Numbered from the stretch's first letter, positions 5,591-49,815 are shown. The stretch: DNA of 64,000 nucleotides from Oligoflexia bacterium (GCA_015231955.1 JADGAN010000023.1:1-64000), one strand, 5' to 3'. Made by a program: numbers and translations. Notes: generated from the letters alone by a model not told the origin.

Positions 5591-8293
5591 TTAACTTCTA
5601 GAAGTTTTCACTAAAAGTAATGATCTGGTTACATACTCTTTAGCTGTCGGTAAGCCTAAAACAATTGGCAATTCCAAAATAACAAACGGTAACGTCAGAA
5701 TTGAAATCGTCCCCCTGAAAAGACCTAAAATGTATGCATTAGAAAAGCTCTCCATTGGTTTTATCCCCACAATGTATTGAAAAAAAGTTGTCCCTACAAT
5801 GGTTATAGGGAATACAAACGCAAAGATTAATGCGGTTGGAGTAAACTCAGAATAAAAGAAGGCAATATAATCCCAGAGGAAATTTAAATCTTTTATACTT
5901 ACATAACTTAGTAGCTCTTCACTCGATTTAACAAGAATTGAGTACTTTGCAAGATAGGCCAATACCACTCGATCTAATTCACTCACAGCAGAACTTAAAT
6001 GGTGGAGGTACTTACTTATAAAATAAGCTAACACCAAGTCGCCAGCAAGAGAAACCCCCCTGCGCAAAGGCCCTGCAAGTGCATAATCATTACCATAGTT
6101 CACACACAAGATCTCTTTAATGCAAGTTACAACCATGGAAAAGAGTTTTGAAGAGGCCTTAAGACGTTTGATTATATTAGGTGAAAGTTGGCGTAGTTGC
6201 TTTAGCTTAAGATAGAGCCTCTCTCGCTTTTTGCGTAAGAATTGATTCATTCCTACAATATGTGCCCATGCTCTACTCTCAGCAACTCCTAGAAGCTCTT
6301 CATTTTGACAAATTAAAAGTGAGCGTGAGAAGATTTCTTTCATCGAGGGAATTCCTATTGCCATCGTCAAATCCAAAGGGGCCAGTGGTAATAACACCAA
6401 TCCCAAACTACATCGAATGCAAGTGGTTACTCTGCCAATACCTCCTCTCATCGGTCCATCAATTTGTAAGATGAACTGCCCAAGAGTCGAACCTAACAAT
6501 AGAGGAATCATCAACAAAAAAAATATCGCGAGCAAAAATGAAATTTTTTCCAAAAGAGAAAAACTCATGTTCATATAGATGAACACAATATCACCGCTAA
6601 TACCCGTGGCAGAGAGCACGTATTGATAAGCATAAAGCATTTTTGCAAACAAGAGGCGATCCCATTCATTAACTATGGGAAAAAAATCTCCAAGCAAATG
6701 CGTAAATGCAAAGATTATTGCAAGATCAATGGCAAAAGCACAACTCCTCCTACGCCAACGAGGAATTAAATAAATGGGCAAACCCGTTGCTAAATCACGT
6801 TCCGGCAACATCAAGAGGATGCGAATCCATCGCACCAATCTGCGATAAAGAGCACTTTTTTCTAATATGGCCTTAATCTTTGCAATGATTTTTTCAAACA
6901 AAGCAGATAGCGCTTCTGCTATTCGATCCCGGAAAGAGAGTTTTTTTGCCTCACCATGAACACTTTCTAAAACAATATCTACATAGGTTGTATCAATATC
7001 TTTGTCTTTATTATCTTTGCTTTTATGTCGCCTTAATTTCCTTAGTCGCATCATCTCAAGCGAAGGCAGTGTGACAAGACAAGACCGAAAAATCATCTCT
7101 TTGATTGTAGGTAATCCCATAATCAGTGGAATCTCAAGCACAAAGAATGGTAGCGTAACTGCTCCAAAAATGGCCTTTAGTGGCGGCAGGATTCTTTGAG
7201 TAATAGGATCATTTAATACACGCACTCTTAATAAGTAAGCAGGGATGGAGACTCCGTACAAGAGTGCTCCTAATAGCGTCCAAAAGAGGTAAGTCGTAAT
7301 CGGAAATGCCTCTAAAAAACGTTCCAGAAAAAAGAAAATAATCGAGTTACTTGAAAACCATTGATCTAGCAAAAATCCATACCCTTCGGTTATCGCATGA
7401 ATAATATCTGTGCATACAAGATTATAAGAGTTTAATGACCGCAGGAAAAAATCTGCCCAAAAGCAGATCATCACATCTATAGAAAAGAGAAGAAATCGAA
7501 ATTTCCTACTTACGATTTCAATTCCTTTACCTTCTAAATTTGCATAGCTGAATTTCTTTAATAGCCGAATCCCTTCTCTACATAAAAAGCTCCAAAACTC
7601 GGCCAGTTGTTCTGATAATGTTTTATTTTTTTTCACCGCCTCTGCTTCTGTGACCTTTTTTCTATAAGCGTGATCTACCTTTCTTGGCTCCTCTAAAATC
7701 AAAGGTCTCGTCTTGGTCACTGAAATCATCACACCACCAAGACTAATCTTAGAAGAGGTATCCAATACCCACAATTTTCCTGCAGAAATATCTCTTTCAC
7801 CCACAGTAATTCCACGCATTTGATGTTGTGACATTAAAACTAGATAGTTGTTCATCAAATACACTTTGCAGTGGCGCAATACTCCATCTGGGTCGTTTAC
7901 TACGATATGAGAGTGTTCACCACATCCAAAAGCAATCGCAGTTTGCACATTAAAAAAACGCTTTTCTTCACAGTTTTCCATACCTTCTACGCAAAGATAG
8001 AACGTTTTTTCATCATCATCCTCACTCTCTAATTCAGTTGGAGAGGCCTTTGCTTTTCTTACCTCGACATGTTCCTTTTCTCCTTTTCGATTTTGTTTAA
8101 TCAACTTCCCATGAGCATCATACTTTCTCTCATACTTGTTATTAGTCAATGTCACCTCTTGATTTTTCGGTTTCTCTCCTTGCTCCCCATTGCTAGAGTG
8201 ACCATGCCCCACGGTATTCACCTCTATTTGCATGGTCTCATCAGGGTTAAAATCTGGAGTATTGTTCTCTGGGAGTGGTTTTTTTTGCGACAA
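5591..8293 (-). CDS. FHA-like domain protein with three RDD membrane modules
   Basis: A 900-residue membrane protein. About 85 charged residues precede an FHA-like domain (about 95-195, with FGCGEHSHIVVNDPDG and LRHCKVYLMNNYLVL). Three membrane modules follow, starting near residues 262, 511 and 741, each opening with an Arg-rich segment and a Asp-containing helix (FRFLLFSIDV, RRRSCAFAIDLAI, RRGVSLAGDLVL). Each ends with a related segment, for example LPFVILELPIVLGLPTAKEY. This is the RDD family layout, tripled. The start is TTG with AGGAGG 5 nt upstream; no ATG occurs before residue 21. FHA domains usually bind phosphothreonine, but no kinase is adjacent. RDD function is poorly defined; transport of small solutes or ions has been proposed. 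Confidence 0.78.
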   Translation of the reverse strand: MSQKKPLPENNTPDFNPDETMQIEVNTVGHGHSSNGEQGEKPKNQEVTLTNNKYERKYDAHGKLIKQNRKGEKEHVEVRKAKASPTELESEDDDEKTFYLCVEGMENCEEKRFFNVQTAIAFGCGEHSHIVVNDPDGVLRHCKVYLMNNYLVLMSQHQMRGITVGERDISAGKLWVLDTSSKISLGGVMISVTKTRPLILEEPRKVDHAYRKKVTEAEAVKKNKTLSEQLAEFWSFLCREGIRLLKKFSYANLEGKGIEIVSRKFRFLLFSIDVMICFWADFFLRSLNSYNLVCTDIIHAITEGYGFLLDQWFSSNSIIFFFLERFLEAFPITTYLFWTLLGALLYGVSIPAYLLRVRVLNDPITQRILPPLKAIFGAVTLPFFVLEIPLIMGLPTIKEMIFRSCLVTLPSLEMMRLRKLRRHKSKDNKDKDIDTTYVDIVLESVHGEAKKLSFRDRIAEALSALFEKIIAKIKAILEKSALYRRLVRWIRILLMLPERDLATGLPIYLIPRWRRRSCAFAIDLAIIFAFTHLLGDFFPIVNEWDRLLFAKMLYAYQYVLSATGISGDIVFIYMNMSFSLLEKISFLLAIFFLLMIPLLLGSTLGQFILQIDGPMRGGIGRVTTCIRCSLGLVLLPLAPLDLTMAIGIPSMKEIFSRSLLICQNEELLGVAESRAWAHIVGMNQFLRKKRERLYLKLKQLRQLSPNIIKRLKASSKLFSMVVTCIKEILCVNYGNDYALAGPLRRGVSLAGDLVLAYFISKYLHHLSSAVSELDRVVLAYLAKYSILVKSSEELLSYVSIKDLNFLWDYIAFFYSEFTPTALIFAFVFPITIVGTTFFQYIVGIKPMESFSNAYILGLFRGTISILTLPFVILELPIVLGLPTAKEYVTRSLLLVKTSRS

Positions 8294-8357
8294 GGATGCC
8301 TCCTATATTGTGAGCAAAAGATGTCATAGTATAATTATAGATAGGAGGGCCATAGAA

Positions 8358-9044
8358 ATGAATCTTGTAAAAATTGTATTCTGCTTAGAAGATAAACAAG
8401 ATCTCGCATTGCTTAGAACCAAATTTAATACCAATGAAAAATTTATCTTTGAATACATCATAAACATTGAAGATTTAGATAAGATCATTCAAGCTGGAGA
8501 GGTCTCTCTGATCATTTTTAATTATGGTGAGCAAACACTCGAGCTTGGACGGCAAATCAAGGAGAAGCTGAGCGAAGTTCTCTGCTTTTACATTTTTCCT
8601 CAAGATGTCGAGCTAGATACATTACTGAAATTACAGCTATCCTATAAAAATTTTGATGGCCCAATCATTCGCCCTCTCAATGTCTCTCTTCTCGGAAAAA
8701 TCTTCTACGATCTCTTCGTCATTAAAAATGTGGATCCATTTACAGAAGCAGAGGCATCTTCTTATGATACCCCTCCCGCTAAAGAAGCTCAAAAAGAGTC
8801 CAAGGAAATTGCTTTTAGCAAAGAAGATGAGGAAGGCGCCAAAGAGATTGCTATTGAACAACAGAGCTATGATAAGTTTAACACTAAAGAGTTTATGGAG
8901 CTTGCAGAGTTCAAGAGAGAATGTGCACAAGAGAAAGCTCTTGCAGATCTACTGTCAGAGGGGGAGGAGCAGGAGAAAAAACTTTACGAAGAGATCTTAG
9001 CGAAGGAAGAAGCGGAGAAGCGCAAAATTATCAAGAAAAAATAG
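8358..9044 (+). CDS. Receiver-like (pseudo-receiver) protein with acidic tail
   Basis: A 228-residue protein. The first 120 residues look like a receiver fold (MNLVKIVFCLEDK, VSLIIFNYGE, CFYIF, GPIIRPLN), but the phospho-acceptor position in the third strand reads FNYG rather than an aspartate and the usual Lys-Pro is Arg-Pro. It is therefore probably not phosphorylated. The remainder is acidic and helix-forming (EDEEGAKEIA, EEQEKKLYEEILAKEEAEKR). The ATG has AGGAGGG 8 nt upstream; the open frame further 5' overlaps the divergent gene and is ignored. It is divergent from the FHA-RDD gene across a 64-nt gap, so the two may be coregulated. Function unknown. Confidence 0.7.
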   Translation: MNLVKIVFCLEDKQDLALLRTKFNTNEKFIFEYIINIEDLDKIIQAGEVSLIIFNYGEQTLELGRQIKEKLSEVLCFYIFPQDVELDTLLKLQLSYKNFDGPIIRPLNVSLLGKIFYDLFVIKNVDPFTEAEASSYDTPPAKEAQKESKEIAFSKEDEEGAKEIAIEQQSYDKFNTKEFMELAEFKRECAQEKALADLLSEGEEQEKKLYEEILAKEEAEKRKIIKKK

Positions 9045-9063
9045 TTACCTCTCTTTATCTTCT

Positions 9064-10065
9064 TTAGTTTTGCGCTTTAACTGCACAAGCGGCCACAACA
9101 TTTACAATATCATCCACACTACAGCCACGAGAGAGGTCATTGTATGGCTTTGCAAGTCCTTGTGATAAGGGACCAAAAGCGATGGCATTGGCCAGGCGTT
9201 GAACCAGTTTATAACCAATATTTCCAGCGTTTAAATCAGGAAAGACCAAAACATTGGCATTGCCACCAATAACACTATCTGGGGCCTTACTCTTGGCAAC
9301 TTTAGGGACTATGGCCGCATCTGCCTGAAGCTCACCATCCAACTTAAGATCTGGTCTACGCTCGCGCACAAGCTTGGTGGCCTCTACAACTTTGTCCACC
9401 ATTTCATGTTTTGCACTTCCTTTAGTTGAGAAAGAAAGCATGGCAACTTTAGGTTCATCTCCTACTAAGGCCCGACGAGTGTCTGCTGTTGCAATAGCAA
9501 TGTCTGCAAGCTCACTGGCATTTGGATTTGGGATGATCGCACAATCTGCAAAAAAGATATTCACATCCTTTTGTCCGAGGTATTCAGGGATGATCATAGA
9601 AAAACAACTTGAAACAATAGAAGTGCCCTTTGCCTTACCAATCAAATGAAAAGCAGCAGTCATTACATCACCGGTGGAGTTTACAGCACCAGCAACACCT
9701 CCATCAATCACACCTTTACGAACCATCATCGCGCCATAAAAGAGTTCCTTTGACATTTTCTCTTTTGCTTCTGCAAGAGTCATTCCTTTTTGTTTTCGAA
9801 GTTCGTAATACTCATTTGCATACTCTTCAAAGTTCTTTGCACTCTTTGGTTCTATAATTACAGCTTCTCCAATATTTAATTTTAATTCGGAAACTCTTTT
9901 TCTAATGGCATCTTCATTCCCAAGTAGAGTCACGTGTGCAATTTTTTCTCTCATTAAAACTGCCGCTGCCTCCAGCATACGATCATCCATCGCTTCAGGA
10001 AGCACAATGCGTTTACTATTTTTTTGGGCCTTACTACGAATGCTATCAATAAATGCATTTGACAT
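9064..10065 (-). CDS. pta: Phosphate acetyltransferase
   Basis: Interconverts acetyl-CoA and acetyl phosphate. The 333-residue length fits the short Pta form (catalytic PTA_PTB domain only). Family segments include [73 protein letters not shown] and [19 protein letters not shown]. It is downstream of ackA on the same strand with a 50-nt gap containing AGGAG, which indicates one operon for acetate overflow or acetyl phosphate homeostasis. Acetyl phosphate can phosphorylate receivers that lack a kinase, which could matter given the orphan receivers in this window (inference). Confidence 0.96.
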
Positions 10066-10115
10066 AAATTAGATCTCCTAAATAGACTAGTTTAAAATTG
10101 TAATTTGAAAACTTT

Positions 10116-11360
10116 TTAAAGCAATTTTTCAATACAAAGAACTGTATCACGAGCAATCACCAGTTCCTCATTGGTTGGCACTACCAATGTTTTCACCTTA
10201 GCATCGCTCGCACTAATGTCGGTTGGTCGTTCATATTTTCCAAGCACCCCATTATTCATGGTGTTTTTACTTTGATCGATTTTAATCCCCATAAAATCGA
10301 GGTCTTTCGTTGCCAGTTCACGCACAATACAGGAGTTCTCTCCAATGCCACCGGTAAAAACCAAGGCATCGGCACCACCAAGCACGCCCATATAGGATGA
10401 GATATATTTTTTCAATCGGTAACAAAAAATATCTAGCGCAAGGGTTGCCATCTCATGCCCCTTATCCCGCGCATCTTCAATCTCTCTTAGGTCGTTTGAA
10501 AGCTGTGAAATTCCAAGAAGTCCGCTCTTTTTATTCATCATCGCATCTGCTTCAGCAATACTTAGCCCCTCTTTATTCATAATATGTAAAATCAGTGCAG
10601 GATCGATATCGCCACAGCGAGTTCCCATCATTAATCCTTCGAGTGGAGTGTGCCCCATCGAGGTGTCAACAGAGCGGCCTCCTCTTATAGCAGTAATGCT
10701 GCAACCATTGCCTAAGTGGGCGGTAATCAATTTACTCTTTTCACTAGGAATCCCTAGAAGTTCTGCAGCTTGCTTTGAAACAAAACGATGAGAAGAACCA
10801 TGAAACCCGTAGCGGCGGATCCTATGTTTTTGATAAATATTATAAGGTAGTGGATAAATATAAGAGTAGTTCGGCATTGTATGATGAAAACCAGTGTCAA
10901 AGACTGCAACATGAGGAATATGGGGAAAAAACTCACTGGCAACTTGAATACCAATAAGATTTTGTGGGTTATGAAGCGGAGCAAAGTCAGAGCATGCAAC
11001 AATCTCTTCTTTCACTGCACTATCGATAACAACAGACTTAGTGAAGGTTTCCCCTCCGTGCACTACCCTATGTCCTACTCCTGCAATTTCCTCCAAACTT
11101 GATAAAATCTTTGGGTTATCACCTGTTAAAATCTCAATAATCTTTTTCAGCGCCTCTTTATGATCATTTACCGGCATTTTCACTTTAGAATCGTGCCCAT
11201 GATGTGTTTTAAAACGCACAATGGCTTCATTGGAGCCAATTTTTTCAATAATACCTCGAACAAGACTTGAATCTTCATTTCTTTGCATTTTTTCAATGGT
11301 GGTATGAATCACATCAAACTTAAGCGAGGAGCTCCCGCAATTCAGCGTTAGGATTTTCAT
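10116..11360 (-). CDS. ackA: Acetate kinase
   Basis: Transfers phosphate between acetyl phosphate and ADP, yielding acetate and ATP. The 414-residue protein begins with the family hallmark NCGSSSLKFDV. It also shows GVGHRVVHGGE, FDTGFHHTMP, RYGFHGSSHRFV, TAHLGNGCS, DTSMGHTPLEGLMMGTRCGD and FTGGIGEN. Length is slightly above the usual 400. The start is the ATG directly before KILTLNCGSS. It is the first gene of the ackA-pta pair and is divergent from nifU across 186 bp that must hold both promoters. Confidence 0.97.
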   Translation of the reverse strand: MKILTLNCGSSSLKFDVIHTTIEKMQRNEDSSLVRGIIEKIGSNEAIVRFKTHHGHDSKVKMPVNDHKEALKKIIEILTGDNPKILSSLEEIAGVGHRVVHGGETFTKSVVIDSAVKEEIVACSDFAPLHNPQNLIGIQVASEFFPHIPHVAVFDTGFHHTMPNYSYIYPLPYNIYQKHRIRRYGFHGSSHRFVSKQAAELLGIPSEKSKLITAHLGNGCSITAIRGGRSVDTSMGHTPLEGLMMGTRCGDIDPALILHIMNKEGLSIAEADAMMNKKSGLLGISQLSNDLREIEDARDKGHEMATLALDIFCYRLKKYISSYMGVLGGADALVFTGGIGENSCIVRELATKDLDFMGIKIDQSKNTMNNGVLGKYERPTDISASDAKVKTLVVPTNEELVIARDTVLCIEKLL

Positions 11361-42045: not shown

Positions 42046-44865
42046 TTGAGAATGCTTAGTGCGATCCACTGCCGTTACTATTTAATTACACTTATGGTCT
42101 TACTTATAGTGTCACTTGTTAGTTCGGCCGTTGCACTCGAGATGCCTCCTAAAATTTTCCTAGAGGAAGATAGCAGCAGCGATAGTAGTGTTGAATACCC
42201 ACAAGATGTCTATGAGCGAATAGAGCGTGCCACCAGCTCCTTTGGCAATGCTAATACTGCTCTTTTTCAAGGACGACATCGCATTGCTATTCTCGATTTA
42301 GAATCGTTTAACATGCAGACCAAAGAGAGTGAAAAGAGCACAGATACTTATGCAGAACCAGAGACCATTGAGCTGAACCTTTTTAAGGAAGATCAGGATG
42401 CCAATATCATTGCACGAAAAGAGCGCGTGGTACGCCGAGGAGAAAGGGATCTCACTTGGATTGGATCCATCGATGGTGACGATTTGAGCATGGTTATATT
42501 GACCATGCACGAAGGAAATATCGCAGCACAGATTGATACAACTAAAACATCCTATACCATTCGGCCAATGGGCAGGGGCGTGCATATCGTAAAAGAGTAT
42601 AAGAACTCCCATCATGAAGATTTAAAATCGGATAAAGATGACTTCATCGTTCCTGACAGCAATAGTGATAATCAGCATGTGGCAAAGATCGCTTCTGCCA
42701 TTAAGAACAAGGGCCTTCTAAACACCTTTACCAAGCAACCATCAACATCGCCCTCAGAGTTAGAGGGAAACTTTATTGATGTAATGATCGTTGTTAGTGA
42801 CGAGGTGTCCAGTGCCTCTGCCGATATTGCCGCCGAAATCAACACCGATATTGAGTATTCTAATCAAGCACTCGCCAAGAGCTGTGTTCAAACACGCTAC
42901 CGCCTTGTCTTTGCCGGAACGGTCTCCTACACTGAATATGGATATATGGATTACGATCTCTACTGCATCACCTATCCCGACATCGCTTATTGCGGAAATC
43001 AGACTAATTTAAATGCAGCGACTGCGATTCAAAGCGCACGTGATACTTACGCTGCTGACATTGTTCAGTTCTGGGTAGAAACCAATATGGACTACTGTGG
43101 AATTGGCTGGGCACCTCCTCTTAATGTAATGGACTCAACTTACGGTTATTCCGTAAAGCTACGCCTTTGTGGTTCAGCAACCAGCGCACACGAAATTGGC
43201 CACAACTTAACACTACAACACGATCGCTATCAAAGTCGAGCATCCATGTACAACACCAGTTTAGGCGGTAATTATGGCTTTGTGGTCACTGCTCTAAAAG
43301 TGCGAGATATTATGTCCTATAACACTGAGTGCTCTGATTCCGGACTTACCTGCTCACGCATTGGATACTTTGCCAACCCTCGAGTTGTCTATCAGGGAAT
43401 TCCCTTTGGGATTCCAAATATCGCTGATGGTGCCAAGGCATTGAATGCTTCTCGGGTTATTGCCGCCAACTACCGTACTGCTACTAGCGACTACTCTCCC
43501 GATGTTACTAGCGGCTGTGAAGCAGCAGCAGAAAAAAAGGCGGGAGCTTCACCTTGCTTTATTGCCACCGCCGCCTATGGAACACCACTTGATCGCCGAC
43601 TTTATGTGCTACGCGATTTTCGCGATCACACTCTACTAAATTACACTTGGGGCAAGAGCTTTGTTAAGTGGTACTATGTCCACGCTCCCCAATATGCAGC
43701 GATTATTGAAAAACATGAAACACTAAAATTTCTGGTGCGCACTCTCATCCTCTCTCCCCTAATTTTTTCTATTCAACATCCAATCACCCCTTTGACTTTT
43801 TTTCTTTGCACGCTACTTCTAATCAGTGTGGCAATTGCCAGAAAGCAACGGCAACACTTTTTTATTTACTTACTCATAGGCTTACCTATGGTATATGCAA
43901 CAGATACATTGTCTCAAGTAACATCACCCAGTTTAGATTTATCGGAAAAAAGTATAAATCCTGGCATTGTCTCAATCAACGATCATAAGAGGAAATTTTC
44001 AGTTGCAGGAAGGATGGGAGAAGGAACGGGGAGTACCGATATTTCAGGAAAAAATCGTGAGTCCCGAGACATCACGTTTAATGAAGCTGTGGCGGCCATA
44101 AATGCCTCTCAATTTGGTGCAGAAGCTTACTCTTTATTTAGTCGCAAAGATAGCATCACAGAAAAAGGGGCCAGTAATAGCAGCTTCAAAACCGATCGTA
44201 CAGAAAAGGAGACACAATTGGCAGTGGCCAGCTCCTTTACTCGCTATTTATCCCTTGGTGCTGGATATACAAAAAATCAAGTGAAGCTCTCCTCTACAAC
44301 CGACGATACCACACGCATGGGTGGTGGCAGTGTAGTTGAGTTTGCAGATCTTCTTTCCATCGGTGGTGCCTACTATTTAGTCAGCAATAAAAAAAAAGAT
44401 ACCAAGGATAATAGTTGGACTTATGGTATTGCCGGTGTAGGCATCAAAGGGATCGATCTCTCCTTCTCTTGGAAAATCGAAGTCTCCTATGCCAAAACAC
44501 CAGAAAGTGTTGCAGCGGGAACAAGTGAAGGAGCGGCCACCAATTTTCATCAGGCAACAGAAGACACTACTATGGGTGGAGAGGTCTATCTTGGAAACGA
44601 TTTTATCAGCAAGCTTTTTATTGGAAGTTTAAATGGCGTTATCGTTACCGCATCAAGGGCCAACAAAAAAGCAAAGGCCCTCTCTACTTCAGGGAGCGGT
44701 GAAGGGTCAGAGGAAAGTATTAATGTAACCAAGGCAGCAATACTTTTAGTGCTCTGGCGCCGCCAAATGCAAATTGGAGTAAGCGTACAAAAGACAACCG
44801 CCACGAGAGGAAATAATCAATACTCTGAAAGTCTAATGATGGTTGCCGGAGGATTTAAGTTTTAA
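42046..44865 (+). CDS. Metzincin protease with CFI-box segment and beta-barrel-like C-terminus
   Basis: A 939-residue exported protein of unusual composition. After a signal peptide, residues 230-480 form a metzincin domain: SAHEIGHNLTLQHDRY (near residue 381) and a Met-turn candidate in VRDIMSYNTECSD, like reprolysin-type peptidases but with Thr for the usual Gly. At about residue 504 a CFIATAAYGTPLDRR segment begins, matching the CFI-box-CTERM type sorting region, followed by a hydrophobic helix (about 580-605). A further 330 residues look like an outer-membrane barrel: alternating strands ending in VAGGFKF with a terminal Phe. The start is TTG at 42046 or ATG at 42052 (AGGAG 6 or 12 nt upstream). 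Confidence 0.8.
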   Translation: MRMLSAIHCRYYLITLMVLLIVSLVSSAVALEMPPKIFLEEDSSSDSSVEYPQDVYERIERATSSFGNANTALFQGRHRIAILDLESFNMQTKESEKSTDTYAEPETIELNLFKEDQDANIIARKERVVRRGERDLTWIGSIDGDDLSMVILTMHEGNIAAQIDTTKTSYTIRPMGRGVHIVKEYKNSHHEDLKSDKDDFIVPDSNSDNQHVAKIASAIKNKGLLNTFTKQPSTSPSELEGNFIDVMIVVSDEVSSASADIAAEINTDIEYSNQALAKSCVQTRYRLVFAGTVSYTEYGYMDYDLYCITYPDIAYCGNQTNLNAATAIQSARDTYAADIVQFWVETNMDYCGIGWAPPLNVMDSTYGYSVKLRLCGSATSAHEIGHNLTLQHDRYQSRASMYNTSLGGNYGFVVTALKVRDIMSYNTECSDSGLTCSRIGYFANPRVVYQGIPFGIPNIADGAKALNASRVIAANYRTATSDYSPDVTSGCEAAAEKKAGASPCFIATAAYGTPLDRRLYVLRDFRDHTLLNYTWGKSFVKWYYVHAPQYAAIIEKHETLKFLVRTLILSPLIFSIQHPITPLTFFLCTLLLISVAIARKQRQHFFIYLLIGLPMVYATDTLSQVTSPSLDLSEKSINPGIVSINDHKRKFSVAGRMGEGTGSTDISGKNRESRDITFNEAVAAINASQFGAEAYSLFSRKDSITEKGASNSSFKTDRTEKETQLAVASSFTRYLSLGAGYTKNQVKLSSTTDDTTRMGGGSVVEFADLLSIGGAYYLVSNKKKDTKDNSWTYGIAGVGIKGIDLSFSWKIEVSYAKTPESVAAGTSEGAATNFHQATEDTTMGGEVYLGNDFISKLFIGSLNGVIVTASRANKKAKALSTSGSGEGSEESINVTKAAILLVLWRRQMQIGVSVQKTTATRGNNQYSESLMMVAGGFKF

Positions 44866-44899
44866 AGAATCAAAGATTAGCAAGAGCAAGGAGAGTCAA

Positions 44900-45208
44900 A
44901 TGCGCAAACACCCCAGAAAAAAAGTACATTGTGAATTTAGAGTTTATACCAGCATTAAGTCAGGGGCCTACACCACCAAAGTTGCAGATATCAGCAAAGG
45001 GGGGGCCTTCATCCAAACGCCCTTTTTACCCAAGCAAGGGGAGGTGATCTCCTTTGAAATTATCAACCATTATCTACAAACTTTAGAAAGTGGTAACGCC
45101 AGTGTGGTTTGGACAAAATCCACAGGGCCAATCAAAGAGCATGGTTTTGGAATCTCTTTTCATGAAGAAATTGCAGATGCTCTCCTTGATAGCTTATCTT
45201 CAACATAA
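44900..45208 (+). CDS. PilZ domain protein (c-di-GMP receptor)
   Basis: A 102-residue single-domain PilZ protein. Both ligand motifs are intact: R2-x-x-x-R6 (RKHPRKK) and DxSxxG in DISKGG, so c-di-GMP binding is expected. The ATG at 44900 has AAGGAG 7 nt upstream; the open frame upstream overlaps the protease gene. It starts 35 nt after that gene's stop and 68 nt before the large fusion gene, so it might be cotranscribed with either. Confidence 0.92.
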   Translation: MRKHPRKKVHCEFRVYTSIKSGAYTTKVADISKGGAFIQTPFLPKQGEVISFEIINHYLQTLESGNASVVWTKSTGPIKEHGFGISFHEEIADALLDSLSST

Positions 45209-45276: not shown

Positions 45277-48200
45277 ATGGAAAACATTTTTCAAAAAATT
45301 TACACACAAAAACTTCCTGAAAGTCACAATCTTCCCTCTTATAAAAACTTTGCTGATCTGCTCTTTCAAAGAGAGCTTCCTGCAAAGAGCGATCACCCTC
45401 TACTCATGGGTGTTTGTAATGGGCGCCCCATTTCCATTGACTTAACTTATCTTCGTAACATCACCGCGCAATTGATGCTAAAAATTCATTCCCTACAAAT
45501 TAAAAAAGGTGATCACGTTTTATTACTTCGCCCCTCTCACTCTAATGATATCTATTGCGCTCTAACTTACATAGCGCTTACCTCACTCGGAACCACAGTC
45601 ACTTTTATCGCTAAACTGCATCTCGATCAACTTCAAGAACTCAAGGCAAATATTCCATTTAAGTGCATCTTCATGGGCCGAGATGGATACACTTTTCAAG
45701 GTCGAGAAACCAAAGAGAGTAATTTACTTGAAGATATTGCCAAACTTAGGCCACGCACGCCCGTCTATTTTTTCGCTCGCGATTTAAAGATCCCTTTGAT
45801 TTTGCAATATCAATTTTCACACGAGCAATGGCGAGAAGATTTATCCAGCATGCAAGATGCCTTTCAAGTCAAGAGTAGTGATAAATGCCTTATCACCGTT
45901 GATAATAATAAGTTTATGAGCATATTCACTCATGAGCATCTCCTCAAAAGTTGTGAAAGCTGGTATCATGCAGGTTTGCTTACCCCATCACTCTTTGGTA
46001 GTAAAGGCCTCTTTCTCTCTTTCACTCCTATTATTCCGGTCATCTCACTTTGGAATGCTCTTTGGAATGCTCACACCATGTGCATCCTTTCCTATGAGTA
46101 TTTTACAGAACTGCCGACTCACGCGCAGGCCAACTTTGTTAAGATGGCCCCAGAGCATATTTTAGGCAGCAATGCGACGTTTGAAAATCTTTTGGATCTC
46201 ATCAGTGCTTTTCCTAAGCTCAAAGATTTTTGCCTGCAAACTCTCAAGGCATTAAATATTAATGGCTCCCGCTTTGATCAAACGACTGCCAAACGCACAC
46301 AAAATGCGTTTAAACTCTATCCATCTAACGCCTATACAGGGCATAGCTTTTTAATGGCAATGAATACTCTTATTGCTGGAGAGCTTAGTAATTCTAGTGC
46401 TGGCGCCCTTGGTAATCCCTTACCAGGAGTAAGTATTGCACTTAAAAAATTTGATCCTGATAAAATTGACATCAATCTGCCTACACATGGAGTGCATATT
46501 CAAGGACGTGCTCGCACTTTATACACAGTTTTTCTTAAGGCCCCCTTTATTGGCAAAACCTTGCCCTTCTCTCCTATTGATAACATTCAAATACACGATG
46601 AAAATGAGTGGCTACATACCGGTGATCTGGTGGAAGAAAAAGATGGTGGTCTGCACTTGGTTTATCGTTACACCAATGATTTTATAAAAGACAACTTTGG
46701 CAGTAAAATTTTTTATGAACGTTTTCACCACCACTATAAAAAACTCTACAAAGAGGCGGCCTTCATTGAGATCTTTTCTCTTAAAAACACTCCTGGACTA
46801 GGAGTGATTATCTTTGTTCCAGATAAAAATAATAGTATTACCAGGGGGGTCTCCCGGGTGGTTAAAGATAAAAAATATTTAAGTGCTACCAAAAACACCA
46901 TTGAGGCCACCTTAGAGCGCTTACGAGTGGAGATTGAAGAGGGTGAGTTTCGGCACTATTTTATCGAGCGCTTTGCTATCCTTAAAGTCAATGCCTGCAT
47001 GCTTGATGAATATATCAAAGTGATTACCTCAGGTGCCTTAAGGCTTTTTGATTACGACTCTGCCTTTATTAACGATCTCCTAAAGGCAAAAATTCAACTG
47101 ATACAGCAACTAACCGGCCATTATAAAAAAGTCTCAGAAGTAGTAAAAATCGATCGCGAACGTTTTATGCGTTCTGAAACCACTCGCTTTACCAGCCCCA
47201 GAAGAGGGGAACTGCTTCACGTTGCCAATTTGGATAAGAGTTACATTCGCGGTAAAGGTGATAAATTATACTACCTTCACCAAGAAGGAAAGGAGTGTGA
47301 GGTTCTCGATTTTGTTGGTGGTTTTGGTGGTAATTTACTGGGACATCGAAATCCCAAAATATTAAAGGAGGCCAATCGTTTCTTAAAAGGCCAAGAGATC
47401 TTCCTTTTTGATCAAGGATCAGAGCGGCCCATTCTCGGTGAATGCGCTAAAGAGTTATCGCTGGAAGTTGGTAAATATACCGATTGTGTTTATGTCGTTC
47501 GCTTTGGTTCTACTGGTGCTGAAGCCGTGGAGATGGCACTAGCGCACGCTTTCTTAGAACGCGATAAAAAAATTCATAATATCATTCGCGATCAAAAGCG
47601 CTGCTTTGGCTCTATTATGCCGGAAAAGGTACGAGAAATTGAACATAACATGAGGCGCTTGATACGAGAAAATTCACCAAAAATTATCGCTCTAAAAAAA
47701 GGGTTTCATGGTCACTCCCTAAGCGCGCGCTCTGTCTTGGCAAACTTCAATAAAAGACAAAAATTTGAACCGATGACTGCCATGGAGGCAATCTTCCTTG
47801 ATGAAAATTTATATCCACAAATTGCTGAGATTGTGGCGCGTGAAACTTTGAGCATAAATATTTTAGTACAGCAAGGACGAGAGGTGGTGGAGCAATCAAT
47901 CTCCATACCTGGCATCATTGCCGCCATTGCCGAACCTGTACAAGGTGAAGGTGGTGTAAATATCATTAATCCAGAGGTGCTCTCTAAACTCAGTACTTAC
48001 GATTTTCCGCTTATTCTCGATGAAATTCAATCGGGACTTGGGCGTTGTGGGAGCTTTCTTGCCTCAGAAGGGGTGCATGGCCATTATTACCTTTTCTCCA
48101 AAGCACTTGGCGGAGGTGTTGCTAAAATCTCGGCACTCTTAATTGAAAAAGATCGCTATGTTGATAAATTTGACGAGTTATACTCCTCAACTTTTGCAGG

Positions 48201-49815
48201 TGATGTCTTCTCCACTACCATGATGAAAAAAACTTTGGAGGTTATTCGTAATGACGAGATTGCCAAACGCTGCAAAGAGATGGGTGAGCATATTAAAGAG
48301 CAACTACAAAAACTCTTGAAAAAATATCCTGACATCTTCAAGGAGGCACGAGGAGTAGGGCTTTTACAGGCCATTGAACTTCGAAGCGACAACCTTCAAG
48401 ACTCTGCCTTTATGAGAGCAGTCAATGAACAAGAGTTCTTTGGTATTCTCTGCTCCGGTTATCTCTTGAATAATTTCAACATTCGCTTGCTTCCCACGCT
48501 CTCGTCCCCGAATGCATTAAGAATTGAGCCGAGCGCTTATATTGAAAAGAGTTCTATCAGCAAACTGATGAAGGCGTTTGAAAATCTTGCCACTATTCTA
48601 CGTCAGAAAGATTATGCAACCCTTCTATCCTTTCTTATAAGCGATGATATTCCAAAAAAAATACCTTCCAAATCCAAAACAGAAGATGGTCGAGCACCGG
48701 CTTACTCTACCATCATTGAACCACCCGCTCCCGATGCCGTCCGTGTTGGCTTCATTAACCATTTTGCCATTCCCGACCAGGAACTGATGATGGCCGAACC
48801 TTCGCTCAAGAGACTCACCGCTACCGAAAGGCAGATGCTTTTTGAAAAACTGATTCAATTTTACGAATTAAAGCCTTTTATTGGGTTTGCAAAAAATCTT
48901 TTCGGTGGAAAAATTTGGTTCTTATCGGTGGTGATTCCCGCTGATGCATCCTTGTTAGGTCATCTCCATCAAATGGGAAGTCTTTACCTAGAAACGGAAC
49001 GCATCCAAGATGCCATCGATTTAGCGGCCAAACATGGCTGCAAAGCTGCTGCACTTGGAGGCTACACTAGTATCATGACTAAAGATGGACTGGCCATTCT
49101 TCCGCCTCCAGGAATGAAGATCACTTCTGGTAATACCTTCACCAGCGTTGTCGGTGTTCGTAACATCATTGACACTTGTAAACGCCGGGGTGTCATCTTC
49201 GACGATCCTCAAAACACCATCGCCATTGTTGGCGCAACTGGCAATATTGGCCAAAGTCTTACCAGGCAACTCTTAGGGGAGAAAAAATTATTTAAAAAGG
49301 CACTACTCATTGCACGAGACCAACTAAAATTAAGGCAGCTGCAAAACGAAATCTTAGAACGAACCAAGAGCAGTGGTTTTGAACTCGATCTGCAAATCTC
49401 TACCGATCTTAACGAAGTCAATCGCTGTAATCTTATCGCCATCGTTACTAACACCAATGAACCACTCATCTACCCTCACCACATCGATACTAGTCGCGAT
49501 ATTCTCATCGCCGACCTCTCGGTGCCCTCTGCGGTTTCTGCAAAAGTTTGGGAGATGAAAAATGTCAAAGTAATGTCCATTTTTGGCACTGTTCCTGTAC
49601 CTGGAGAAAATGACTTTGTGATCAGCTCCCACACAAAACCAGGTACCACTTTTTGTTGCTCGGCCGAAGCGATGTTAATCGGTCTTGAATATGAACGTAC
49701 AAAAAACCTTTCGCTCACGGGTTCCATTGAACTTGCAAGTGCTACTGCTCTCGAAGAGCTTGGAGATACTCATGGATTTCTCACCAGTTTTGGTGTTGGT
49801 GGTTTTAAATTTTAA
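45277..49815 (+). CDS. Fusion: AMP-ligase-like, class III aminotransferase, acyl-ACP reductase
   Basis: A 1512-residue three-part enzyme. Residues 1-610: acyl-adenylate-synthetase-like with LHTGDLVEE, but the phosphate-binding motif is replaced by ITVDNNKFMSIFTHEH and the catalytic lysine motif (TSGK) reads TSGALR, so activity is doubtful. Residues 650-1130: class III PLP aminotransferase with FGSTGAEA (743), AEPVQGEGG, LDEIQSGLGR and PLP lysine K942 in FSKALGGG. Residues 1160-1512: cyanobacterial AAR-like reductase with GGYTSI (1261), NADPH motif GATGNIG (1319-1325), and a Cys-x-Ala-Glu-Ala-Met nucleophile at C1461. No carrier domain is seen. Likely acyl thioester to aldehyde to amine (inference). 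Confidence 0.88.
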   Translation: MENIFQKIYTQKLPESHNLPSYKNFADLLFQRELPAKSDHPLLMGVCNGRPISIDLTYLRNITAQLMLKIHSLQIKKGDHVLLLRPSHSNDIYCALTYIALTSLGTTVTFIAKLHLDQLQELKANIPFKCIFMGRDGYTFQGRETKESNLLEDIAKLRPRTPVYFFARDLKIPLILQYQFSHEQWREDLSSMQDAFQVKSSDKCLITVDNNKFMSIFTHEHLLKSCESWYHAGLLTPSLFGSKGLFLSFTPIIPVISLWNALWNAHTMCILSYEYFTELPTHAQANFVKMAPEHILGSNATFENLLDLISAFPKLKDFCLQTLKALNINGSRFDQTTAKRTQNAFKLYPSNAYTGHSFLMAMNTLIAGELSNSSAGALGNPLPGVSIALKKFDPDKIDINLPTHGVHIQGRARTLYTVFLKAPFIGKTLPFSPIDNIQIHDENEWLHTGDLVEEKDGGLHLVYRYTNDFIKDNFGSKIFYERFHHHYKKLYKEAAFIEIFSLKNTPGLGVIIFVPDKNNSITRGVSRVVKDKKYLSATKNTIEATLERLRVEIEEGEFRHYFIERFAILKVNACMLDEYIKVITSGALRLFDYDSAFINDLLKAKIQLIQQLTGHYKKVSEVVKIDRERFMRSETTRFTSPRRGELLHVANLDKSYIRGKGDKLYYLHQEGKECEVLDFVGGFGGNLLGHRNPKILKEANRFLKGQEIFLFDQGSERPILGECAKELSLEVGKYTDCVYVVRFGSTGAEAVEMALAHAFLERDKKIHNIIRDQKRCFGSIMPEKVREIEHNMRRLIRENSPKIIALKKGFHGHSLSARSVLANFNKRQKFEPMTAMEAIFLDENLYPQIAEIVARETLSINILVQQGREVVEQSISIPGIIAAIAEPVQGEGGVNIINPEVLSKLSTYDFPLILDEIQSGLGRCGSFLASEGVHGHYYLFSKALGGGVAKISALLIEKDRYVDKFDELYSSTFAGDVFSTTMMKKTLEVIRNDEIAKRCKEMGEHIKEQLQKLLKKYPDIFKEARGVGLLQAIELRSDNLQDSAFMRAVNEQEFFGILCSGYLLNNFNIRLLPTLSSPNALRIEPSAYIEKSSISKLMKAFENLATILRQKDYATLLSFLISDDIPKKIPSKSKTEDGRAPAYSTIIEPPAPDAVRVGFINHFAIPDQELMMAEPSLKRLTATERQMLFEKLIQFYELKPFIGFAKNLFGGKIWFLSVVIPADASLLGHLHQMGSLYLETERIQDAIDLAAKHGCKAAALGGYTSIMTKDGLAILPPPGMKITSGNTFTSVVGVRNIIDTCKRRGVIFDDPQNTIAIVGATGNIGQSLTRQLLGEKKLFKKALLIARDQLKLRQLQNEILERTKSSGFELDLQISTDLNEVNRCNLIAIVTNTNEPLIYPHHIDTSRDILIADLSVPSAVSAKVWEMKNVKVMSIFGTVPVPGENDFVISSHTKPGTTFCCSAEAMLIGLEYERTKNLSLTGSIELASATALEELGDTHGFLTSFGVGGFKF

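Follow-up and report, generated by a model that had tools for sequence, protein, structure and literature searches.

PtTamH, from the tambjamine YP1 pathway of Pseudoalteromonas tunicata, is a 941-aa protein in which a class III transaminase (TA) domain precedes a thioester reductase (TR) domain; it binds PLP, aminates C7-C14 aldehydes, does not use C12-CoA, and together with PtTamA (an ANL-ACP protein) converts C12 acid to C12 amine in vitro with NADH, not NADPH (PMC9594044). PigE, which acts in prodigiosin biosynthesis in Serratia, has the order TR-TA, with evidence for both thioester reduction and aldehyde transamination, and its product cyclises (PMC8341465). The condensing enzyme of the tambjamine pathway, TamQ, corresponds to PigC (PMC6667630). 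TamH has been described as a unique fusion of a tambjamine producer; in the present analysis TA-TR proteins were found in Bdellovibrionota, Planctomycetota, Actinomycetota and Bacillota.

The window analysed here is a stretch of 64,000 nucleotides from an Oligoflexia bacterium (GCA_015231955.1 JADGAN010000023.1:1-64000), on the forward strand of which positions 45277 to 49815 form one open reading frame of 1512 aa with an ATG start. A sequence-only reading of the locus had proposed a single chain of AMP-ligase-like, aminotransferase and acyl-ACP reductase (AAR) parts, and the frame and all motifs that it quoted are present (Table 1). The protein is a divergent but genuine TamH-type TA-TR enzyme, of a kind already known; the only novel element is the pseudo-ANL domain at its N terminus. 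Like PtTamH, it carries in one chain a class III TA followed by an AAR-like TR, with a PLP lysine, a GxxGxxG-type motif (GATGNIG) and a nucleophilic cysteine; PtTamH, in contrast, has no fused ANL domain and is encoded in a tam cluster with TamA and bipyrrole genes. PigE combines the same two domain families in reverse order. Cyanobacterial AAR shares the Cys294 equivalent, GGYTSI and GATGNIG but is a single-domain protein, as is the caerulomycin aminotransferase CrmG. The ANL-then-TA-TR order is reminiscent of tambjamine biosynthesis, where PtTamA acts just before the TA-TR enzyme, although PtTamA stands alone and combines an active ANL with an ACP, whereas the domain here is fused, lacks an ACP and has lost ANL motifs. 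The earlier statement that no system with this architecture had been described is thus mistaken as regards the two core domains (PtTamH, PMC9594044; PigE, PMC8341465): the basic TA-TR design is already described, and the novelty lies in the extra domain at the N terminus and its probable link to a pathway still unexplored in these bacteria.

Table 1. Features of the 1512-residue protein and their positions in the window (TA, class III transaminase; TR, AAR-like thioester reductase).
Feature	Residues	Position	Strand	Basis
ANL-like + TA + TR, whole open reading frame	1512 aa	45277..49815	+	domain and profile searches
Degenerate ANL-like N-terminal domain (approximate boundaries)	about 20-615	45334..47121	+	hhalign, residues 23-464; no Pfam match
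Expected ANL P-loop (A3) region, CLITVDNNKFMSIFTHEHLL, glycine-free	204-223	45886..45945	+	sequence; alignments with intact ANLs
ANL A7 motif WLHTGDL, kept	445-451	46609..46629	+	alignments
ANL A10-equivalent TSGALR; Ala587 at adenylation Lys position	584-589	47026..47043	+	alignment with TSGKLRR / TSGKVQR of L087 and L089
Class III PLP aminotransferase domain (TA)	636-1117	47182..48627	+	PF00202 E 1.1e-46; sequence and fold matches to CrmG and PigE
PLP lysine	Lys942	48100..48102	+	invariant 17/17
AAR-like thioester reductase domain (TR)	1151-1504	48727..49788	+	TIGR04058 E 4e-17; 6jzq E 2e-11
GGYTSI motif	1261-1266	49057..49074	+	alignments
GATGNIG nucleotide-binding motif	1319-1325	49231..49251	+	alignments
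Catalytic Cys, second Cys of CCSAEAM, on AAR Cys294	Cys1461	49657..49659	+	alignment; invariant 17/17

In a Pfam scan of the whole protein, Aminotran_3 matched residues 660-1075 with E 1.1e-46. The solved structure nearest to the TA domain by sequence was CrmG (29% identity), and when residues 636-1512 were modelled with AlphaFold (mean pLDDT 78) and the model was compared by Foldseek, the TA fold was again nearest CrmG and then PigE. Because the best 50 Foldseek matches listed for this TA-TR model were all aminotransferases, the assignment of the TR domain rests on sequence. The C-terminal domain matched the NCBIfam model AcACP_reductase (TIGR04058) with E 4e-17 and 62.5 bits, against a curated cut-off of 449.7 bits, and by this measure is related to AAR rather than being a TIGR04058 equivalog. 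Its best solved-structure matches in sequence searches were AAR and PigE, led by the S. elongatus AAR chains 6jzq and 6jzu (E 2e-11), with Cys1461 aligned on Cys294; in the 6jzz chain the corresponding position is Ser. TA-TR proteins or parts of them were detected in 35/369 genomes of the phylum, and the identity of the window's protein to its TA-TR relatives was about 25-33%. In an alignment of the window's protein with 16 TA-TR relatives from the phylum, Lys942, Cys1461, Glu1464 and the GxxGN motif were invariant (17/17). All 16 relatives thus keep both the PLP lysine and the AAR cysteine, so that the catalytic reading, a class III PLP aminotransferase acting through Lys942 joined to an AAR-like domain with a nucleophilic cysteine, stands.

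The proposal that one polypeptide reduces an acyl thioester and aminates the resulting aldehyde gains support by analogy from PtTamH, which has the same domain order and is active in vitro (PMC9594044). We regard it as fairly probable that this is a bifunctional enzyme of the TamH type whose N-terminal ANL domain is probably inactive and whose amine product is probably passed to enzymes encoded elsewhere in the genome. As in AAR, an acyl group would be transferred from a carrier thioester, probably acyl-ACP, to Cys1461, and the acyl-enzyme would then be reduced to the aldehyde by hydride from NAD(P)H. As in TamH and CrmG, the aldehyde would be converted on Lys942 to a primary, probably fatty, amine. 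Neither the NADPH nor the chain length named in the sequence-only reading can be read from the sequence, and the cofactor of PtTamH is NADH. This account is weakened by the low identity to other TA-TR proteins (about 25-33%), by the position of the protein on the longest branch of the TA-TR tree, by scores far below the AAR and PigE cut-offs, by the lack of a partner or carrier-protein gene in the window, and by the occurrence of the fusion in one assembly only.

The N-terminal domain had no Pfam match, PF00501 (AMP-binding) included, and its NCBIfam matches were weak, with an acyl-CoA synthetase model at E 0.001. With a profile built from eight ANL enzymes, however, residues 23-464 were collinear with these enzymes at an hhalign score of 65.2, as compared to at most 31.1 for 60 shuffled sequences and 21.5 for the reversed sequence; the domain is, as judged by this profile comparison, of ANL superfamily ancestry. 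Alignments with intact ANLs showed no glycine anywhere in the P-loop (A3) stretch, where a glycine-rich loop is expected, and placed His at the A5 Glu position and Ala587 at the A10 Lys position (TSGK to TSGA), the A5 and A10 placements being the less certain ones at such divergence. Since the glycine-rich P-loop is missing and both of the other residues are apparently replaced, the adenylation site is probably dead, and with the P-loop and apparently the adenylation lysine lost, fatty-acid activation by this domain is probably gone. The AMP-ligase-like label thus holds for descent, and activation of a fatty acid is not to be assumed. A single-sequence AlphaFold prediction of the domain reached a pLDDT of 31.6. 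No relative of the domain was found in 129 genomes of the family, and 369 genomes of the phylum gave short weak matches only, the best of which was not ANL-like on inspection. The domain is the descendant of an ANL ligase, probably once encoded by an adjacent gene, and may serve to dock the acyl chain or its carrier, or have a structural role. Such a pseudo-ANL, fused to TA-TR, would offer a natural example of the scaffolding of fatty-amine cascades.

A self-sufficient enzyme, in which the ANL domain adenylates a fatty acid through an unusual ATP site and the acyl group reaches the TR domain directly or via CoA or free ACP, would account for the fusion of an ANL-like domain ahead of TA-TR and for the kept TGD of A7. 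TamA plus TamH carry out the same conversion as two proteins (PMC9594044), and an ANL gene adjoins the TA-TR gene at a planctomycete locus (L087). We nevertheless consider this unlikely, given the motif losses described above and the lack of an ACP domain; the Pfam scan of all 1512 residues contained no PP-binding or carrier-protein domain. Moreover, none of 20 loci with standalone TA-TR genes in the phylum has an ANL gene in the neighbourhood, adjoining ANL genes being found only at L087 and at L089, a Nocardia locus.

The TamH-type reading is also to be weighed against PigE-like chemistry, in which the aldehyde bears a ketone and the aminated product closes to a cyclic imine or pyrroline instead of being a linear fatty amine. 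The PigE model matched both the TA and TR parts and was among the best family matches for each, and the product of PigE cyclises (PMC8341465). The PigE equivalog model NF053554, however, gave 194.2 bits against a curated cut-off of 850 and requires TR-TA, whereas the order here is that of TamH, and no PigD- or PigB-like gene was seen among the translations read within the window. PigE-like chemistry therefore appears improbable.

The fusion of ANL with TA-TR was seen in this one assembly and in no other genome examined. A check for signs of an artefact where the parts join showed no stop, no Shine-Dalgarno-like sequence before Met631, and similar codon-position GC on either side. At L087 (Planctomycetota isolate OFTM393), an intact ANL frame (6098-7903) ends 10 bases ahead of a TA-TR gene (7914-10850), with PigC-like and UbiA-like genes downstream on the same strand. 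In a tree of TA-TR parts, the window's protein grouped, with support of 91/92, with planctomycete and actinomycete sequences including L087, apart from the majority of sequences of its phylum; because it is the longest branch in the tree, this grouping is suggestive only. The simplest account is that an ANL/TA-TR gene pair, possibly from another phylum, was fused and that the ANL part decayed later. Relaxed selection on the whole protein, such that the gene is decaying or non-functional, would be consistent with the very long branch and the lost ANL motifs, but the frame is open over 4.5 kb, all TA and TR catalytic residues are kept, and the codon-position GC pattern is similar in all three parts, which makes general decay a distinctly improbable explanation. 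A fusion of glutamyl-tRNA reductase with glutamate-semialdehyde aminomutase for tetrapyrrole precursor synthesis, which would follow the same logic of pairing a reductase with a PLP enzyme, was rejected as highly improbable, since the TR domain matches HemA only weakly (TIGR01035, E 3e-4), the E value of its AAR match (4e-17) is lower by about 13 orders of magnitude, AAR and PigE are its best solved-structure matches, and no aminomutase model is among the 25 matches listed.

Translations read from the window revealed no biosynthetic partner gene, carrier protein or bipyrrole (MBC) biosynthesis gene. Upstream lie a PilZ-like and a large metalloprotease-like frame and downstream a secreted-protease-like frame; as judged from translation, positions 42046-45208 hold the 939-aa metalloprotease-like frame, the C-terminal half of which is repeat-free, and then the overlapping PilZ-like frame. 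In relatives of the phylum, one cluster of neighbour proteins adjoins TA-TR in 17/19 loci, and its tested members are PPDK_N plus PEP-utiliser proteins, a family to which the prodigiosin ligase PigC belongs. Two tested neighbours matched the PigC model (7e-74 and 3e-79), but with scores far under the cut-off, and phosphoenolpyruvate synthase models fitted them at least as well, so that the label "PigC-like" is a guess from context. Genes for UbiA-like and CarS-like membrane enzymes are also frequent neighbours; TA-TR and strong UbiA-like matches occur together in 19/369 genomes, as compared to about 3 expected (Fisher p 3e-14), and counting by genus, which controls in part for kinship, gave p 4e-8. 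Another contig of the window's genome, C40 (L181:7039-11247), carries this trio of TA-TR neighbours without TA-TR itself: a UbiA-like gene (312 aa), a CarS-like gene (186 aa) and a gene for a PigC-like protein of PPDK_N/PEP-utiliser type (880 aa) adjoin one another. In Nocardia sp. CNY236 (L089:7929-13886), one 1986-aa frame contains TA, TR, PPDK_N, PEP-utiliser and thymidylate-kinase-like domains, with ANL and P450 genes downstream.

The window's TA-TR enzyme may feed the products of the C40 genes, and more speculatively these (PigC/TamQ-like, UbiA-like and CarS-like) would carry out condensation or lipid assembly with the amine. The broader picture, in which Bdellovibrionota and relatives share a tambjamine-like module of TA-TR, PigC/TamQ-like, UbiA-like and CarS-like enzymes for the synthesis of some as yet undescribed lipid or metabolite derived from an amine, and in which a dead ANL was absorbed here as an acyl- or carrier-docking domain, is put forward as a possibility that we hold doubtful in this full form. 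The recurrence of TA-TR beside PigC-like ligases points to a family of metabolites or lipids with an amine that has so far gone unrecognised, as well as to further fatty-amine enzymes, and the association of TA-TR with PigC-like, UbiA-like and CarS-like genes is a more interesting lead than the fusion itself.

A search of viral contigs gave no match. A second PPDK_N/PEP-utiliser-type protein (874 aa) is encoded on contig C18 of the window's genome (L182:6612-9236). Two related clusters without a transaminase (L191:1020-13187 and L192:2816-14889) both encode PigC-like, UbiA-like, formyltransferase-like and DUF3419 proteins, an intact AMP-binding ANL, and a 680-aa protein with an AAR-like domain at its C terminus; the first additionally has lipid-kinase-like and NAD_binding_4 reductase genes. 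Such a set of genes suggests a lipid or metabolite pathway that has yet to be described. A gene for a protein of about 370 aa with no Pfam match (L082:10861-11988) adjoins TA-TR, as do matching genes across 7/19 loci (cluster c3), and by eye the protein is acetyltransferase-like.
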